In this document: piece after piece, positions 8,492 to 15,554 of the stretch
Position numbering within the stretch: position 1 is the first letter of the stretch
How the letters are laid out: the number at the start of each line of letters is the position of its first letter
From: Christiangramia sp. OXR-203
GTDB lineage: Bacteria > Bacteroidota > Bacteroidia > Flavobacteriales > Flavobacteriaceae
DNA: 64,000 nucleotides
Direction of reading: 5' to 3'
Assembly (NCBI RefSeq): GCF_034372165.1
Contig: NZ_CP139698.1
Location: forward strand, 1,302,001 to 1,366,000
Program-made: the position numbers and the translations under genes
The notes under the pieces: generated by a model
The model's database searches: none
Told to the model about the DNA's origin: nothing
The model's input: the letters and a program-made list of their open reading frames with translations, nothing else

Positions 8492-11400
8492 ATGGAAAGT
8501 ACAGGAGAACGCTCAAGTGTTACGTCTGAATCAAAAATTGAAAAGAACCAAACTCGCATTATTGCCGTAGGAGCTAGTGCTGGCGGTTTAGAAGCTCTAA
8601 AGGCGTTTTTTGATACTATAGATGCTAATGATGTAAATGCTTATGTAGTAATTCAACATTTGTCACCAGATTACAAAAGTATGATGGGAGAATTACTGAA
8701 GAAGAATACAAAATTGCCAATAATTCAGATAGACCACGAGATGCAGGTGAAACCAGGGCATGTTCACCTGATCCCTCCCGCGAACAACCTCAAACTTGAT
8801 GGTGACCGGTTAATTTTAATAGAGAAGCCTAAAAGTCAGACCCTAAATTTACCTATTGATATGTTTTTTGAGTCTCTCGCGAAACAGCGAAAGGACAAAG
8901 CTATTGGGGTGATTTTGAGCGGTACTGGAAGTGACGGCACTCGAGGCACGCGAGCACTTAAAGAGAATGATGGTATGGTGATGGTGCAGGAGCCAGAAGA
9001 GGCTAAATTTGATGGTATGCCCGTTAGCGCCATAAGTACAGGGCTTGTAGACTATGTCCTTTCTGTAAATGAAATGGGGCAGGAGCTCAAAAGATTCATT
9101 AATACACCTCCAATATTTCATTCAGAAGATGGTAATGCTGACTTCAACCAAAATGAACTTGAAAAAATTCTGAATTACGTTGATAAAAAGTCAGGATTAG
9201 ATTTCAGAGAATATAAGTATGCTACTCTGGCGAGAAGAATTGCCAGAAGAGTAAATATTTGTAATTGTAATAATCTCAATGGCTATCTTGATTATTTAAA
9301 GAACAATGATGAAGAGGTTGAAATTCTTTACAGAGAATTCTTAATTGGAGTTACTAAGTTTTTCCGGGATGAAGAAGTATGGAACATTTTACGAAATGAT
9401 GTTTTTCCCGAAATGATTAGAAATAGGAATAATGGTGACGTTCTAAAGATCTGGGATGTTGGTTGCAGCACCGGTGAAGAGGCATACTCATTTGCTATGT
9501 GCCTGCTCGAAGAATTGCAGAGACAGGATAAAAATATTGAAATTAAAATATTCGCTACAGATATTTCCCAGGCACACCTGGATATTGGTAGCAAAGGGCT
9601 TTATCCGGAAAGTATCGTCGCAGATGTTCCAAAGGATCTTTTACTAAAATACTTTTTAAGTAAATCTGAAGGGTATCAGGTTTCAGATAAATTACGAAGA
9701 TCTGTCATTTTCTCCAGGCATAACATTATTAAAAATCCGCCCTTCAGTAATATGGATATGGTGGTATGTCGTAATCTTTTAATCTATTTTCAAAATAGTA
9801 TTCAGAAGAAGGCGATGAATGTGTTGCATTATGCATTAAAGAAGGATGGTGTTCTGGTTTTAGGAACCAGTGAAAATCCACATTCACTAAAAGACCAATT
9901 TTCTGAAATTGACCGTAAATGGAAAATTTTCAGAAATAAAAAGATTAGTAAGCGCTTAAAGAATGGAGTTACTCATGCATCCCAAACAAATAGCGACAAC
10001 TCCAGGATTTTAGAGAATAACGCTAAACGGGAACGCAAAAATCGTGGCGCTCAATCCAATCCTATTCGACAAAAGCTTCAGCATGAACTAAATGAAGCTA
10101 TTCTAGGACAGTTTGGCGGTGCTGCAGTTTTCGTAGATACAGATTATAATATACTGCAGGCGGTTGGCGAATTTAGAAAATATGCAGCTTTACCTGTTAG
10201 TGGATTTTCGATCAACTTACTGGATATGCTTGACTCCAGTTTGAAATACGTAATTCAATCTACGTTTAATAAAGCCCTGGAATCTAATGAAGTTGCCGTA
10301 TATAAAGATGTTGTTATAAAAAAAGAGCATGACAATTTTGGCGTAGATGTGATCATTAAGCCCTTAAAAGAATACGCTCTGGAGGATGAGATCAATTACG
10401 TAATAATATTTGTTGAAACGGATATCGATTTATCGAAGATTCAGGAAGTTGAAAAAGTGAGTCCTTCTAATCAAACCAAGGAGTATGTTAGCAACCTTGA
10501 AAATGAGCTGAAACGTACCCGGGAAGACCTGCAAACTTCGCTAGAGGAAATTGAAACCAGTAATGAAGAACTTCAGGCGGCAAATGAGGAACTACTTGCA
10601 TCTAATGAAGAACTGCAAAGTACCAATGAAGAGCTTCAAAGTGTCAATGAGGAAATAAATACAGTTAATGCAGAGAATGTTCAGAAAATGGATGATCTCG
10701 CAGCACTAAATGCTGATATGAACAATCTCTTGAAAAGCACTGATATTGGCGTGATCTTCCTGGATTCCCAATTCAATATTAGGAAATTTACACCGGCCAT
10801 CAAAAGACTTTTCAATTTGTTGGATAGCGATATAGGTAGACCAATAGATAATTTTACCATTAGCTTTGGTCTTATACGTAAAAGGAGCTTTATCGATCGT
10901 TGTAAGAGAGTACTGGATACTGGCAAAGTGCTTGACAAACATATCATTTCAAGAGAAGGTCGCAATTACCTTCAGCGAATTTCTCCTTATTTAAACTCTG
11001 AGAATGAGCGGGAAGGGGTGGTGATCACCTTCATAGATATAGAAACCATTCAGAAGTCTAAAGAGAAACTTGCGGCTAGTGAAAAACGTTTTAGATCCTT
11101 TTACGAAGATGATCCTGTACTACACCTGAGTGTAGATCCAAAATCTTCAGAGATTGTACAATGCAACCGCAAAGCTGTTCTAAAATTAGGGTATAAGGAA
11201 GAGCAAGAGTTGATAGGTAGATCTATACATGAATTCTTCGTTAAAGACTCAAAAGTTTCATCTACGAAACTTAAATCTCGCATCAAGAAATCTGGAGAGA
11301 TCATTAATATCGAGCAGAATATGATTACCAGAAATGGTAGTATTTTACCGGTAATTTTAAATGCAACCGCTGAAAAGGACGAAGCTGAAAACCTTAAAAC

Positions 11401-12151
11401 CATTCGCTATACCTGCGTGGATATTTCAGCTTTGAAAACAGCAGAAGCCAAACTTCAGGAACAAAAAAGTGACCTGGAAAGAGCGAACAGAGATTTGGAG
11501 CAATTTGTTTCCATTTGTTCTCACGATCTACAGGAACCATTAGCAACAATCAAATTTGGTAGCGATGTTCTGGGAAAAATGTACGCCAAACATTTGGATG
11601 AAAAAGGAGAGAACTATATTAAGTACATCAAAAATGCTTCAGACAGGCTTTCGGAACAGATAAAGGCACTTCTGGAACATTCCAGAATTGGAAAGAATGG
11701 AGCAAAAGAACTGGTTGATATAAAAGAGGTTGTAGAAATAGTGAAATACGATCTGGGAAAGAGCATTAGGGATACAGATGCAAAGATCAATATTGGTTCG
11801 ATGCCTCAAATCATGGGTTATGAAGTAGAACTTAGATTGTTATTCCAGAATCTTATTAGTAACGCTATAAAATACGTTCCAAAGGAGCGAAGTCCAGAGA
11901 TCAGGATTTCTTCTTATCGTGAAAATGATTATTGGGTATTTTCCATCATGGATAATGGTGTAGGAATCTCAAAAGAAGACCAGAAAAACATTTTTACAAT
12001 TTTTAATCGTGTACCTGGAAATGAGGATATGGAAGGAACAGGAGTTGGACTGGCACACGTAGAAAAGATCGTATTGCTGCACGAAGGTACCATCTGGGTA
12101 GACTCTCAGGAAGGAGTAGGAAGTACCTTTTATTTTAAACTGAAGGCTTAA
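8492..12151 (+). CDS. CheB-CheR-PAS-histidine kinase polyprotein
   Basis: A 1219-residue signalling protein. Residues about 20-205 are a CheB methylesterase domain with its triad visible: Ser29 in GASAGG, His56 in QHLSP and Asp148 in SGTGSDG. Residues about 220-490 are CheR: the SAM-binding motif WDVGCSTGEEA near 322 and MVVCRNLLIYF near 425. A PAS-like segment and a long coiled coil of repeated NEEL heptads (about 665-745) follow, then two more PAS domains (about 750-860 and 875-985). The C-terminus is a histidine kinase: H-box SHDLQEP with phospho-acceptor His1011, N-box NLISNAIKYV, and G boxes DNGVGIS and GTGVGL. It lacks a CheB receiver domain and transmembrane helices, so it is cytosolic. 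It is 8 bases upstream of bphP and probably works with it. No chemoreceptor gene is nearby. Confidence 0.93.
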   Translation: MESTGERSSVTSESKIEKNQTRIIAVGASAGGLEALKAFFDTIDANDVNAYVVIQHLSPDYKSMMGELLKKNTKLPIIQIDHEMQVKPGHVHLIPPANNLKLDGDRLILIEKPKSQTLNLPIDMFFESLAKQRKDKAIGVILSGTGSDGTRGTRALKENDGMVMVQEPEEAKFDGMPVSAISTGLVDYVLSVNEMGQELKRFINTPPIFHSEDGNADFNQNELEKILNYVDKKSGLDFREYKYATLARRIARRVNICNCNNLNGYLDYLKNNDEEVEILYREFLIGVTKFFRDEEVWNILRNDVFPEMIRNRNNGDVLKIWDVGCSTGEEAYSFAMCLLEELQRQDKNIEIKIFATDISQAHLDIGSKGLYPESIVADVPKDLLLKYFLSKSEGYQVSDKLRRSVIFSRHNIIKNPPFSNMDMVVCRNLLIYFQNSIQKKAMNVLHYALKKDGVLVLGTSENPHSLKDQFSEIDRKWKIFRNKKISKRLKNGVTHASQTNSDNSRILENNAKRERKNRGAQSNPIRQKLQHELNEAILGQFGGAAVFVDTDYNILQAVGEFRKYAALPVSGFSINLLDMLDSSLKYVIQSTFNKALESNEVAVYKDVVIKKEHDNFGVDVIIKPLKEYALEDEINYVIIFVETDIDLSKIQEVEKVSPSNQTKEYVSNLENELKRTREDLQTSLEEIETSNEELQAANEELLASNEELQSTNEELQSVNEEINTVNAENVQKMDDLAALNADMNNLLKSTDIGVIFLDSQFNIRKFTPAIKRLFNLLDSDIGRPIDNFTISFGLIRKRSFIDRCKRVLDTGKVLDKHIISREGRNYLQRISPYLNSENEREGVVITFIDIETIQKSKEKLAASEKRFRSFYEDDPVLHLSVDPKSSEIVQCNRKAVLKLGYKEEQELIGRSIHEFFVKDSKVSSTKLKSRIKKSGEIINIEQNMITRNGSILPVILNATAEKDEAENLKTIRYTCVDISALKTAEAKLQEQKSDLERANRDLEQFVSICSHDLQEPLATIKFGSDVLGKMYAKHLDEKGENYIKYIKNASDRLSEQIKALLEHSRIGKNGAKELVDIKEVVEIVKYDLGKSIRDTDAKINIGSMPQIMGYEVELRLLFQNLISNAIKYVPKERSPEIRISSYRENDYWVFSIMDNGVGISKEDQKNIFTIFNRVPGNEDMEGTGVGLAHVEKIVLLHEGTIWVDSQEGVGSTFYFKLKA
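10559..10684 (+). repeat. Heptad repeat coding a coiled coil
   Basis: Six consecutive 21-base units encode seven-residue repeats of the form (S/T/A/V)NEELQx, starting at residue 690 of the CheB-CheR kinase. This is the signalling helix joining the CheR/PAS half to the kinase half. Such NEEL-rich linkers are common in CheB/CheR-PAS proteins. Confidence 0.8.
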
Positions 12152-12159
12152 GTATTTTA

Positions 12160-14373
12160 ATGACAGAAGAGAATAAGTACCCGGTAGAAGTAGACCTTAG
12201 TAGTTGTGAAAAGGAGCCTATTCATATTATAGGTACCACGCAATCGCATGGTTTGTTGATAGCTTCATGTATCAAGACAGGTGAGATCACACAGGTTGGA
12301 GAGAATTCTGGCCATATCATTGGTATTGCTTCAGACGAATTACTAAAACTCAATATTTCTGATATTTTATCTTCGGAAGTGCTTAAAAATATCAATGAAT
12401 CACTGCTGAAGGATGAGAGACTGGAAGTTGAAGAGTCCCTGGTCAATGGTAAGAAATTTATCATTATCCCACATTTAAGCGGTAATTCTCTAATTCTGGA
12501 TATTGAACCCACCCATGAAAAGAAGGATACTTTTGATTTTCAGAGGGAGTTATCCGGATTACTGAATACATTATCTGCAAGTGATAACCCTCAACAGCTT
12601 TGTCAGGATGCAGCCAATCTTACCCGCCAGATTTTTCAATATGACCGTGTGATGGTCTATAAGTTCGATGATGAGTGGAATGGAAAGGTGATCGCGGAAG
12701 CAAAGACTGATGATCTGGAGCCTTTCTTAGGACTACAGTATCCGGCAAGTGATATTCCGAAGCAGGCGAGACAATTATTTTTTAAGAACAGAGTGCGTAT
12801 TATTACTGATGTTAATTACAGTCCAGTAAAAATAGTTCCTCAAATCTCACCTGCAAGTAGCGAACCTCTAGATATCTCGAAATCTAAACTAAGAGGTGTA
12901 TCACCAATTCATATTGAATATCTTCAAAACATGGGGATTGGTGCGAGTTTGACCGCGGCATTGATCAGTAATGGTAAATTATGGGGTTTGCTGGCCTGCC
13001 ATCATCAGGAGGCTAAATTTGTGAGTTACTACGAGAGACAAACCTGTGAATTTCTAATCCAGATATTTTCGAATGAACTTTCACTAAAGAACTCCAGTAC
13101 ATTTTTAACTAAAATAGGAAAGATAGAAAAGGTAGCAGGACAACTTATGGATCAGGTCTTGAGACATGATTCCATCAAAAAAGGACTCGCCACTAATGAG
13201 CTTAAACTTACAGATCTTATTGAATCTTCTGGAGCTGCAATCGTAATAGACGGGAAGATCAAGTTAGTTAGAGAGACACCATCCAAAAAAGAAGTGAAAA
13301 CACTTATCAAGAAGTTTTTGAGTAAACAACAAGATAATATATTCCATACTAAGAACTTAATGAGCTTACATCCAGAAGCTAAAGCTTACAAAGCAACTGG
13401 GTCGGGTATTTTAAGTTCTCGATTGGGAAATGACAATAAGAACTATTTGATCTGGTTTCGTCCTGAAGTAATTCAGCAAATTGACTGGGGTGGCGATCCC
13501 AATAACAAGGCATTCTACGATTCAGAAAAAAAGCGGCTGACTCCGCGTAAATCTTTCGAGAAATGGACCGAGAATTTGAGCGGTGTAGCAACTGCCTGGA
13601 ATGATTATGAATTAAGCGGCGCCAGAAAACTCAGTAAAAATGTTAATTACGTTATTCTTGATCATCAAAAACGTAACATAGATAATCTTAATGAGAAGTT
13701 GGTAACTGCTCATAAGGAACTTGAACTTTTCAGCCAGGGTCTTTCGCACGATTTAAAAGCGCCTTTACGTGGAGTAGATGGTTATGCTCATATTTTAAAG
13801 GAAGATCACTTCAGCAGTCTCAATAAAGAAGGGAGAATGGCGGTAGATACGATCCTGTCTTCGGTTCAGGAGATGCAGGATCTAATTGATAATATACTCT
13901 CCTTCGCCGGGGTCTCAAATGAGAATATTAATAAACAGGTCGTCGCTACAGATACCATGGTGAGTGATATCCTGACGTCATTTAATATAAAGTCCAACTT
14001 TAGTAAAACTTCTGTTAGTATTGATGAGTCTTTACCAAAAATGCTGGGAGACAGAAGGATGCTGGGTCAGGTCTGGTCCAATCTAATTGCCAATGCTTTG
14101 AAATATAGTGAAAGAAGTTCCAGTCCAGCAATTGTAATAGGGTATAGTCTGCAAGAAAACATTACTGTATACCATATCAAGGATAACGGGATTGGTTTTG
14201 ATCCAAAATATAAAGAGGAAATTTTCAACTTATTTTCAAGACATTCGGGAGATAATTACCAGGGCACCGGAATTGGATTAGCGATCGTAAAAAAGATCAT
14301 CGAGAAGCATAATGGTAAGATCTGGGCAGAGAGTGACCCTGGTAAAGGCTCAACTTTCTACTTTCATGTTTAA
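12160..14373 (+). CDS. bphP: Bacteriophytochrome histidine kinase
   Basis: Red/far-red photoreceptor kinase of 737 residues with the order PAS-GAF-PHY-HisKA-HATPase. Cys16, in SSCEKEPIHI, is at the position of the biliverdin-linking cysteine of DrBphP. The GAF domain (about 130-320) has PASDIP (Asp198), the chromophore histidines His251 (SPIHIEYL) and His282 (ACHHQ). The PHY tongue has WGGDP and PRKSF (462-466). The kinase core has His530 in the H-box (LSHDLKAPL), then NLIANALKYS, DNGIGFD and GTGIGLAIV. There is no membrane segment. Bound biliverdin is inferred from these residues and from the heme oxygenase gene downstream. Confidence 0.95.
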   Translation: MTEENKYPVEVDLSSCEKEPIHIIGTTQSHGLLIASCIKTGEITQVGENSGHIIGIASDELLKLNISDILSSEVLKNINESLLKDERLEVEESLVNGKKFIIIPHLSGNSLILDIEPTHEKKDTFDFQRELSGLLNTLSASDNPQQLCQDAANLTRQIFQYDRVMVYKFDDEWNGKVIAEAKTDDLEPFLGLQYPASDIPKQARQLFFKNRVRIITDVNYSPVKIVPQISPASSEPLDISKSKLRGVSPIHIEYLQNMGIGASLTAALISNGKLWGLLACHHQEAKFVSYYERQTCEFLIQIFSNELSLKNSSTFLTKIGKIEKVAGQLMDQVLRHDSIKKGLATNELKLTDLIESSGAAIVIDGKIKLVRETPSKKEVKTLIKKFLSKQQDNIFHTKNLMSLHPEAKAYKATGSGILSSRLGNDNKNYLIWFRPEVIQQIDWGGDPNNKAFYDSEKKRLTPRKSFEKWTENLSGVATAWNDYELSGARKLSKNVNYVILDHQKRNIDNLNEKLVTAHKELELFSQGLSHDLKAPLRGVDGYAHILKEDHFSSLNKEGRMAVDTILSSVQEMQDLIDNILSFAGVSNENINKQVVATDTMVSDILTSFNIKSNFSKTSVSIDESLPKMLGDRRMLGQVWSNLIANALKYSERSSSPAIVIGYSLQENITVYHIKDNGIGFDPKYKEEIFNLFSRHSGDNYQGTGIGLAIVKKIIEKHNGKIWAESDPGKGSTFYFHV

Positions 14374-14383
14374 CTTTTAGCAA

Positions 14384-14414
14384 TTGTTTCATACTTAGTT
14401 TTAGATTATTTTCG
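14384..14414 (+). promoter_or_regulatory. Possible internal promoter before the response regulator
   Basis: TTG at 14384-14386, a 20-base spacer, then TATTTTCG at 14407-14414, one mismatch from TAnnTTTG. Transcription would start about 14 bases before the response-regulator ATG. It falls in the only sizeable gap (61 bases) of the phytochrome operon. Confidence 0.4.
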
Positions 14415-14434
14415 CTTTTGATATAAGTGTAGTC

Positions 14435-14995
14435 ATGATCCACAGAAAACTTAACATACTTCTGGTTGAAGATAACGAGAATGATATCTTTCTCATTAAG
14501 CGACAAATTTCAAAGATCGTAGAGGAACCTGTGATCGAAACCACAGATAATCTTCAGGATTGTAAACGATTACTTTTGAACTTCGCGCCAGACGTGGTCC
14601 TTTCAGATTATAATTTGCCCAACTGTACAGGCCTTGATGTGCTGACTACCGTGCAGGAATTTGATGATTCCATTGGATTTATCTTTATTACCGGAACTAT
14701 CAACGATGAGGAATTAGCGGCAAACACTATTTTAAATGGAGCTTCAGGTTTTATTCTTAAAAAGAATATTAACAGCCTGAGTGAAAAGCTGGAGCCTCTG
14801 CTAAAAAAGATAGTCATTAATATGACCTCAAAACAGGAGCTTAGAAGTATGATTCGCCAGAACAAAATCACGGTGAACAAGATCTATGATTACCTGGACA
14901 AAATGAATTCTGAAGATCAGGCTCAGAAAGAGAACATCAATAAGATCAGGGAAGCGATCGGTAATTTTGATACAGATAGAAACGATGCTGAATAA
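14435..14995 (+). CDS. Receiver-only response regulator
   Basis: A 186-residue protein with one REC domain at residues 6-130: acidic pocket Glu12-Asp13, phospho-acceptor Asp58 in VLSDYNLP, Thr in FITGT, and the conserved Lys in GFILKK. A polar, probably helical tail of about 55 residues follows, with no DNA-binding or enzymatic domain. Its place between bphP and the heme oxygenase gene makes it the likely phosphoryl acceptor of the phytochrome kinase, the CheB-CheR kinase, or both. Its output may be protein-protein contact or phosphorelay. Confidence 0.9.
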   Translation: MIHRKLNILLVEDNENDIFLIKRQISKIVEEPVIETTDNLQDCKRLLLNFAPDVVLSDYNLPNCTGLDVLTTVQEFDDSIGFIFITGTINDEELAANTILNGASGFILKKNINSLSEKLEPLLKKIVINMTSKQELRSMIRQNKITVNKIYDYLDKMNSEDQAQKENINKIREAIGNFDTDRNDAE

Positions 14996-15533
14996 ATTAC
15001 GGGAAGCAACCAAAGCTCAACATGAGGCGTTGGAAGGTGAAAATCTAGCCAACAAGATCATGGATCATAGTATTACTGAAGAAGAGTATAAATTACTTCT
15101 GCTCCAGAATTATGCTGCTTATGCTGCTACTGAAGATCCTATAGCCAGCCATCTAAAAAATTATTCTTCTACAAAAACCGATGCGATCAAATTGGATCTT
15201 TCAAGCCTTGGAATAGATAAGGCTGAAACTTCTCTTGAATTTCAATGTGAAAATGATGCAGAAGCTATAGGTGCAGCATATGTTGTAGAAGGTTCTGCAA
15301 TGGGAGGTTTAATGATAGGGAAGGAGCTGAAGAATTGTCCTCATCTTGAACATTTACCAGATCAACAATTTTTCAGTGGAAAAAGAGACCAGATCAAAAG
15401 CTGGAATGAATTTCTAAAGTTTCTTCGGAGTAAGGACTTTTCAGAAGATCAAAAAGAAACTGCTGCCAGAAAGGCTCAACAAACTTTTGATTTGTTTGAA
15501 GAAGCATTCAAAATTGAATTAATAAAATTATAA
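14985..15533 (+). CDS. bphO: Biliverdin-producing heme oxygenase
   Basis: Oxidises heme to biliverdin, the chromophore of the phytochrome encoded two genes upstream. It is an all-helical protein of about 182 residues. The N-terminal motif LREATKAQHEALE carries the proximal heme-ligand histidine in the same context as in other heme oxygenases, and the Gly-rich distal-helix stretch GSAMGGLMIG matches the region that kinks over heme. I chose the ATG at 14985, giving an 11-base overlap with the response regulator; an ATG at 14967 is also possible and would add six residues. Length and the phytochrome context point to light sensing rather than iron acquisition. Confidence 0.9.
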   Translation: MLNKLREATKAQHEALEGENLANKIMDHSITEEEYKLLLLQNYAAYAATEDPIASHLKNYSSTKTDAIKLDLSSLGIDKAETSLEFQCENDAEAIGAAYVVEGSAMGGLMIGKELKNCPHLEHLPDQQFFSGKRDQIKSWNEFLKFLRSKDFSEDQKETAARKAQQTFDLFEEAFKIELIKL

Positions 15534-15554
15534 AGTCCTTCTCAGGACTTTTTT
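15532..15554 (+). terminator. Terminator of the phytochrome operon
   Basis: AAAGTCCT (15532-15539), loop TCTC, AGGACTTT (15544-15551), followed by further T residues. It begins at the bphO stop codon and separates the operon from ggt. Confidence 0.85.

Follow-up and report, generated by a model that had tools for sequence, protein, structure and literature searches.

A CheB-CheR histidine kinase encoded with a bacteriophytochrome in Christiangramia is a candidate self-methylating partner in light signalling

Introduction

Receptor methylation is known from chemotaxis, where CheR and CheB adapt methyl-accepting chemotaxis proteins (MCPs). The accessible part of PMC6829392 gives the consensus of MCP sites as [ASTG][ASTG]xx[EQ][EQ]xx[ASTG][ASTG], the second residue of the pair being methylated and lying at heptad position c. 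Here we describe a locus of Christiangramia sp. OXR-203 in which both enzymes are fused to a histidine kinase and encoded together with a bacteriophytochrome (BphP). The window analysed, that is, the whole stretch of 64,000 nucleotides (contig NZ_CP139698.1, positions 1,302,001 to 1,366,000), belongs to a genome of 3.40 Mb in one contig. In the photosensory part compared, L094, a named Christiangramia locus, and the genome G011 of the genus have identical sequences. Four open reading frames (ORFs) on its + strand, at 8492-15533, encode, in the order given, a CheB-CheR kinase, BphP, a receiver and a heme oxygenase. We propose, at a confidence close to evenly balanced, that the CheB-CheR kinase may be a partner of the phytochrome which methylates a coil of its own and would thereby provide light-linked adaptation in a marine bacterium without chemoreceptors.

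Each part of this arrangement has described relatives. A CheB-CheR hybrid has been noted in Rhodospirillum centenum (PMC2890560), and a 'cheBR fusion' appears in Geobacter counts (PMC8396549). As in those fusions, CheB and CheR form one chain here, followed by a coil, PAS domains and a kinase; unlike them, the present fusion is linked with a phytochrome and occurs in genomes that lack MCPs, and the accessible parts of both papers give the coil no function. Light input is tied to chemotaxis-type proteins in sensory rhodopsins with their Htr transducers and in Ppr of R. centenum, a kinase that combines a photoactive yellow protein module with a bacteriophytochrome one and reportedly interacts with chemotaxis proteins (PMC5812497, PMC2993699, each in its accessible part). 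Those systems join chemoreceptor pathways, whereas no MCP, CheW or CheA dimer domain was found in the genome studied here. As for bacteriophytochrome operons, the BphP architecture (Cys-PAS-GAF-PHY-HisKA-HATPase) and the adjacent heme oxygenase and receiver recur at several of the loci that we sampled, and BphP has solved full-length homologues (e.g. 8uph). In contrast to such operons, the present one is headed by a CheB-CheR-PAS kinase, and related operons encode a phytochrome without any kinase.

The open-access literature, in its accessible parts, contained no description of a phytochrome link of a CheB-CheR kinase, and no statement on the substrate of CheB-CheR fusions, on their coil or on a signalling helix with CheR/CheB. 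Where PMC5812497, PMC2890560 and PMC8396549 speak of bacteriophytochrome and of CheB or CheR, they do so for separate systems or in general terms, apart from Ppr. A preliminary description of the locus, made from the sequence alone, had called the coupling of light to CheB/CheR domains uncharacterised; apart from the Ppr precedent, this agrees with the same literature.

Results and discussion

The Glu-Glu coil of the CheB-CheR kinase

The CheB-CheR kinase consists of the following parts (window positions, with residues of the protein in brackets).

8492..12151, + strand: CheB-CheR-PAS-like-coil-PAS-PAS-HisKA-HATPase kinase (1219 residues), with the genome's only CheR and only CheB
8561..9088, + strand: CheB methylesterase domain (residues 24-199), without a receiver; Ser29, His56 and Asp148 motifs present
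9155..9925, + strand: CheR N-terminal and S-adenosylmethionine-binding domains (residues 222-478)
10121..10420, + strand: PAS-like mixed alpha/beta domain (residues 544-643), from AlphaFold secondary structure; not called by Pfam
10463..10738, + strand: single uninterrupted predicted helix (residues 658-749)
10544..10669, + strand: six consecutive Glu-Glu heptads, proposed methyl-accepting sites (first Glu at 685, 692, 699, 706, 713 and 720)
10718..11428, + strand: two PAS domains (residues 743-850 and 881-979)
11495..12145, + strand: HisKA and HATPase_c domains (residues 1002-1218), phospho-acceptor His1011

CheB, CheR_N, CheR, PAS, HisKA and HATPase_c are thus all found on one chain together with the active-site motifs. 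The CheB part aligns with solved CheB chains and the CheR part with solved CheR chains; the Pfam scores (CheB 178 bits, CheR 189), like those of PHY (162) and Response_reg (57) elsewhere in the operon, are far over the cut-offs. The motif residues Ser29, His56 and Asp148, which we take to be the catalytic residues of the CheB domain, belong to motifs present in all 24 proteins examined (the window, 21 loci of the genus, genome G030 from another genus of the family, and a fragment from the genus genome G009). No Response_reg domain was found in the 1219-residue protein. The block at residues 544-643 has predicted local distance difference test (pLDDT) values of 62-78, lower at its end, and the name PAS-like is our own reading.

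Searches of 24 genomes of the genus, this one included, gave no match to MCPs (PF00015), CheW or the CheA dimer domain (PF02895). Because these matches are missing, the usual substrate of CheR and CheB is absent, and ordinary chemotaxis adaptation was rejected for the genus. The preliminary description had noted that the window lacks chemotaxis genes; for the families searched, this holds throughout the genome. In some genomes of the genus there is a further CheB-CheR gene or a CheB on its own. Besides the match in the operon, a CheB match lies in a short open frame in eight of the 24 (G001, G009, G010, G012, G013, G014, G021 and G022). These frames span 221-357 residues, one of them with an internal stop, in genomes without an MCP match.

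Residues 658-749 are predicted by AlphaFold as one helix (pLDDT 84-87 over 681-730, lower at both ends; predicted template modelling score 0.55). Within it, between CheR and the PAS domains, residues 685-726 form six heptads of the Asn-Glu-Glu-Leu type. Counting Asn as a and Leu as d, each pair has its second Glu, in our reading, at heptad position c. Across 40 diverse proteins the pairs are near-invariant, with exactly one extra heptad in four. Among 221 pairs from these proteins, Ser, Thr or Ala occupies position +4 in 213 and position +5 in 139, and position -3 holds one of these residues or Gly in 207. The coil resembles MCP sites, as the accessible part of PMC6829392 gives them, in its Glu pairs spaced by seven residues on a long helix, the second Glu at c, and the small residues at -3, +4 and often +5, but not at -4, where Gln predominates. 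It differs from MCP adaptation in that there is no MCP, no CheW and no receiver on CheB, and in that enzyme and proposed substrate lie in one chain.

How specific is this coil to proteins with CheR? A scan of named genomes with the CheB-CheR alignment had yielded 80 loci, with search patterns that included part of the coil; because of that, the coil was re-examined in a second sample, obtained by searching with only the CheR family. The 40 CheR-fused loci used (L244-L283), a hand-picked subset of the listed long-frame rows, do not include the 80 named loci, whose other frames enter the background counts. Runs of at least three consecutive Glu pairs with 7-residue spacing were present in 37 of the 40 CheR-fused proteins. 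Over all loci sampled by then, such runs were present in none of 21 stand-alone CheR proteins, in none of 158 kinases without CheR, and in 2 of 1392 other frames of at least 200 residues.

A similar association was seen where CheR is a separate gene. Of 11 CheR loci, hand-picked from 11 genomes in which no MCP was matched, six lie next to a hybrid kinase (1147-1195 residues) with three consecutive Glu pairs, and another has a CheR-kinase fusion with three. By Pfam, one of the hybrid kinases is CHASE3-GAF-HisKA-HATPase followed by three receivers. Next, 20 CHASE3 loci were hand-picked regardless of CheR, five that had been used in the CheR-locus set being left out, and 33 kinases were called in them. 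Those fused to CheR or within 5 kb of a same-strand CheR have runs of three in 6 of 16 cases (fused 2/2, near CheR 4/14), compared with 0 of 17 without CheR (Fisher 0.007), counts that are not independent events, as the kinases are related to one another and both fused kinases belong to genome stretches that the 40-locus set covers as well. Taken together, the Glu-Glu coil marks CheR-containing and many CheR-adjacent signalling proteins.

A further observation concerns L284-L292. In these MCP-negative Bacteroidota, CheR and CheB are separate genes that adjoin a large hybrid kinase or a SpoIIE-type protein with a Glu-pair coil. This is apparently an in-trans version of the CheB-CheR kinase.

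Phytochromes without a kinase beside CheB-CheR kinases

Phytochrome loci were collected from three overlapping genome samples (59 relatives, 395 genomes of the phylum and 395 of the class; the weak PHY rows G334, G295 and G435 left out), and neighbours were tabulated within 5 kb of each phytochrome. Three sampled phytochromes, all from Bacteroidota (L058, L068 and L174; 497-512 residues), have no kinase of their own by profiles which, as for receiver, CheB and CheR, were seeded with the window's own domains and can miss distant kinases. In all three, a CheB-CheR kinase is the next gene downstream on the same strand, at 0, 32 and -4 nucleotides, respectively. Outside the genus and G030, a CheB-CheR kinase thus lies within 5 kb of 3/3 kinase-less versus 1/52 kinase-bearing phytochromes (Fisher 1.5e-4, a value that ignores relatedness, two of the three sharing one genus). 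The sole kinase-bearing case is L084, with the CheB-CheR gene beyond the heme oxygenase. At this locus (L084:8941-15879, same family as Christiangramia), one strand carries the genes of a receiver, a CheB-CheR kinase, a heme oxygenase and a kinase-bearing BphP, in this order.

Among the 80 named CheB-CheR loci, nine have a phytochrome in the locus stretch. One is Christiangramia; the eight others (Cesiribacteraceae, two Mucilaginibacter, Flavipsychrobacter, Flavisolibacter, Pedobacter, Sporocytophaga and Pontibacter) all have kinase-less phytochromes, of 485-533 residues. Since they were found via their CheB-CheR neighbour, these eight were excluded from the Fisher test. The phytochrome is directly upstream of the CheB-CheR gene in seven of them and downstream in Sporocytophaga, where both genes have a broken frame.

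The biliverdin-binding Cys, the GAF Asp and the first His are present in all 11 kinase-less phytochromes, and the PRxSF tongue in 10, the remaining one having a gap where its frame breaks off. Because these chromophore-site residues and the tongue are kept, the kinase-less phytochromes look like working photoreceptors that need an output. These pairs argue for joint action of the phytochrome and the CheB-CheR kinase, probably through contact. The preliminary description had joined light input to a kinase with CheB and CheR domains; that the two belong together finds support, by comparison only, from the linkage within the genus, from G030 and from the kinase-less phytochromes.

A side observation from these loci is L056:7913-10846, a 977-residue frame in which about 200 residues, weakly heme oxygenase-like, precede a full bacteriophytochrome. 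This could be a heme oxygenase-phytochrome fusion; in the first part, no heme oxygenase domain is called by Pfam.

Conservation of the operon and trees of both partners

In the 24 genomes of the genus, the phytochrome family PF00360 matches once per genome in 22, the two without a match being 67% and 73% complete. All 22 have the CheB-CheR kinase, BphP, receiver and heme oxygenase genes in this order on one strand. Of these two, G009 has a contig that ends in bphP, whose start lies 4 nucleotides downstream of the CheB-CheR gene, and in G023 the CheB-CheR gene is cut. G030, whose CheB-CheR protein is 65% identical, retains the four-gene block, and none of four probed flank genes was found within the 20 kb examined there. 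The search for the same gene order in other genomes, proposed in the preliminary description, therefore recovered the block in the 22 genomes and in G030. A CheB-CheR orthologue unlinked to bphP, which it had named as contrary evidence, was not seen in any sufficiently long contig of the genus; CheB-CheR kinases in general are mostly unlinked, judging by the nine of 80 named loci with a phytochrome.

Flanks were compared at 22 loci (21 of the genus plus G030), with gene names from our own reading and not from a family search. Genes resembling proB and proC lie upstream in 20 of the 22, a pseudouridine-synthase-like gene lies downstream in 21, and a gamma-glutamyltransferase-like gene is beside the heme oxygenase in 14.

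The rest of the operon is as follows.

12160..14373, + strand: bacteriophytochrome BphP, PAS-GAF-PHY-HisKA-HATPase (737 residues; Cys16, His530)
14435..14995, + strand: receiver-only response regulator (186 residues; Asp58)
14985..15533, + strand: heme oxygenase, for biliverdin supply (182 residues from the ATG at 14985)
15532..15551, + strand: terminator-like hairpin directly 3' of the heme oxygenase stop

Intergenic distances are 8 nucleotides between the CheB-CheR and BphP genes and 61 between those of BphP and the receiver, while the receiver and heme oxygenase genes overlap by 11. An alternative TTG start at 14967 is listed for the heme oxygenase, which scores 53.3 bits with Pfam Heme_oxygenase (cut-off 23) and has a weak PDB match (8.6e-5). 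Terminator-like hairpins are no commoner than in shuffled sequence (5 found versus 4.7 expected). BphP has the complete photosensory core: PAS-GAF-PHY, the N-terminal Cys, the GAF Asp and His, and the PRxSF tongue. ORFs and Pfam domains bear out the four-gene light-signalling operon on one strand with small gaps that had been described earlier, and the residues named then are right (BphP Cys16, His251, His282, His530, PASDIP with Asp198, and PRKSF; CheB-CheR His1011; receiver Asp58). Its list of genes is correct in content; read as an order it is not, since the CheB-CheR gene comes first and not last. About 60 residues extend the receiver protein at its C terminus (window 14800-14995); no family fits them convincingly, the sole match being a weak tape-measure one below its cut-off. 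A plasmid source of the operon was also considered and found no backing, as the plasmid collection held no near match.

Trees were built for both partners (CheB-CheR, 124 rows; photosensory core, 74 rows), with 13 of the 21 fetched Christiangramia loci left out of both as near-copies. In the photosensory tree, a 27-row group (95/89) contains two clades, one of kinase-less cores (100/99) and one of Christiangramia-type cores (100/100). In the CheB-CheR tree, a 30-row group with an SH-like approximate likelihood ratio test (SH-aLRT) value of 96 holds 11/11 proteins linked to kinase-less phytochromes and 10/11 linked to full ones. It also includes nine rows labelled unlinked, two of which are contig fragments of the genus (L052 and L053), so labelled though L052 carries the bphP start. 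The CheB-CheR protein of L084 is placed far from the Christiangramia one. The trees would fit an old partnership of phytochrome and CheB-CheR kinase that has changed since, together with a linkage in L084 of separate origin.

Objections and alternative explanations

A number of observations on the coil, the receiver and the linkage weigh against our proposal, and some of them favour alternatives. As regards the coil, three of the 40 CheR-fused proteins show only two consecutive Glu pairs, and two coils occur without CheR (L121 4505-6484 and L282 1161-2882). At the separate CheR loci, the large neighbours at L289-L291 have only two pairs (one of them is HAMP-GAF-PAS-SpoIIE by Pfam) and L294 has none. 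At the CHASE3 loci, ten of the 14 kinases near CheR lack a run of three, and the run at L304 is of another sequence type. Of the four positions for which the MCP consensus gives small residues, the coil agrees at three; the fourth, -4, is mostly Gln. Homology to MCPs was sought and not found: the coil profile gave no MCP among 31 PDB matches, and a single-sequence search returned one, at E 0.96 only. The similarity between coil and MCP sites is therefore best described as resembling, not as demonstrated homology.

The missing MCP homology and the two coils without CheR would both suit a different explanation, in which the Glu-Glu coil is a structural signalling helix, concerned with stability or register, while CheR and CheB act on another protein such as BphP or an unknown partner. 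AlphaFold's one continuous helix agrees with it too, and long linker coils are common in kinases. Against it stand the absence of any run of three Glu pairs in the 158 CheR-less kinases, the near-invariance of the pairs among diverse proteins, and the frequency with which separate CheR-CheB genes adjoin a kinase with such a coil; on balance, this explanation seems rather less likely to us. BphP as the CheR substrate was unsupported by the same coil test, since phytochromes are among those 158 kinases.

An alternative close to the idea of the preliminary description is that both kinases feed one receiver, CheB-CheR methylation setting the baseline of a light-driven phosphorelay. One receiver does lie between BphP and heme oxygenase in 22/22 phytochrome-matching genomes of the genus, and both kinases are of the HisKA type, with HisKA and HATPase_c called by Pfam in each. 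However, the helix following the phospho-acceptor His in the dimerization and histidine phosphotransfer (DHp) domain differs between BphP and the CheB-CheR kinase, each version being conserved in the genus. A same-strand receiver lies within 200 nucleotides of 18/52 kinase-bearing phytochromes outside the genus versus 0/3 sampled kinase-less ones, and the three kinase-less pairs have no receiver within 5 kb. Among all 11 kinase-less loci, a same-strand receiver lies about 0.8 kb from the phytochrome pair in L121, one of the eight found by the named-genome scan, and L102 has a receiver on the opposite strand, which counts against our proposal. Judged by sequence and gene neighbourhood, the receiver fits BphP best: BphP most likely phosphorylates it, because of the gene order and the 18 other phytochromes with a nearby receiver, and the CheB-CheR kinase may have another target, because its conserved DHp helix differs. 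We thus regard the shared receiver as rather doubtful. Of the two phosphotransfers to Asp58 suggested earlier, the one from BphP is favoured by the receiver's neighbours and the one from the CheB-CheR kinase is less supported, given the different DHp helices.

The linkage of phytochrome and CheB-CheR kinase also has its exceptions. Within the genus it is partly inertia, because the flanks are conserved too; of the 52 kinase-bearing phytochromes in the sample, 51 lack a CheB-CheR neighbour within 5 kb; and L097, L268, L280 and L283 fall inside the kinase-less CheB-CheR clade with no phytochrome in about 8-15 kb each. These conserved flanks and the scarcity of CheB-CheR neighbours, like BphP's own kinase with its adjacent receiver and the different DHp helices, would suit two independent lines sharing only co-expression, BphP to the receiver and a CheB-CheR kinase sensing some other input via PAS to an unknown regulator, a scheme that is nevertheless improbable in view of the kinase-less phytochromes, which have intact chromophore residues and a CheB-CheR kinase as the obvious output, and of the two trees, which group both linked lineages. 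Chance linkage was rejected in view of the 22/22 phytochrome-matching genomes of the genus, of G030 with its other flanks and of the kinase-less cases.

Proposed mechanism and implications

We return to the proposal that the CheB-CheR kinase is the phytochrome's self-methylating partner. Heme oxygenase would make biliverdin, to be bound by BphP via Cys16, and BphP would sense red/far-red light and phosphorylate the receiver through its own kinase. The CheB-CheR kinase would act as partner of the phytochrome, and as its likely output where the phytochrome has no kinase, presumably by direct contact. CheR would add and CheB remove methyl groups on the Glu pairs of the coil in the same protein; methylation of the coil would set the gain of the kinase, so that it could adapt to steady light. 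In this scheme we infer that phytochrome and CheB-CheR kinase touch, that the coil is methylated, in which direction methylation acts, and which kinase serves the receiver.

CheB-CheR fusions occur in many phyla, as seen from the named loci and the CheB-CheR tree. It is possible, although we hold this broader view more loosely, that CheB-CheR kinases, which are widespread among bacteria whether or not these have chemotaxis, are single-chain receptor-kinases which methylate their own coil and adapt without a chemoreceptor, and that Bacteroidota phytochromes, some of them kinase-less, have been plugged into such a kinase, making a light sensor with an output that self-methylation adapts. For these fusions, the conserved Glu-pair coil in the same chain offers a testable substrate. 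If the proposal is true, receptor methylation would extend to ordinary two-component signalling, kinase-less phytochromes would gain an output, and the CheB-CheR kinase would provide a light-linked protein in which to study methylation adaptation without chemoreceptor arrays.

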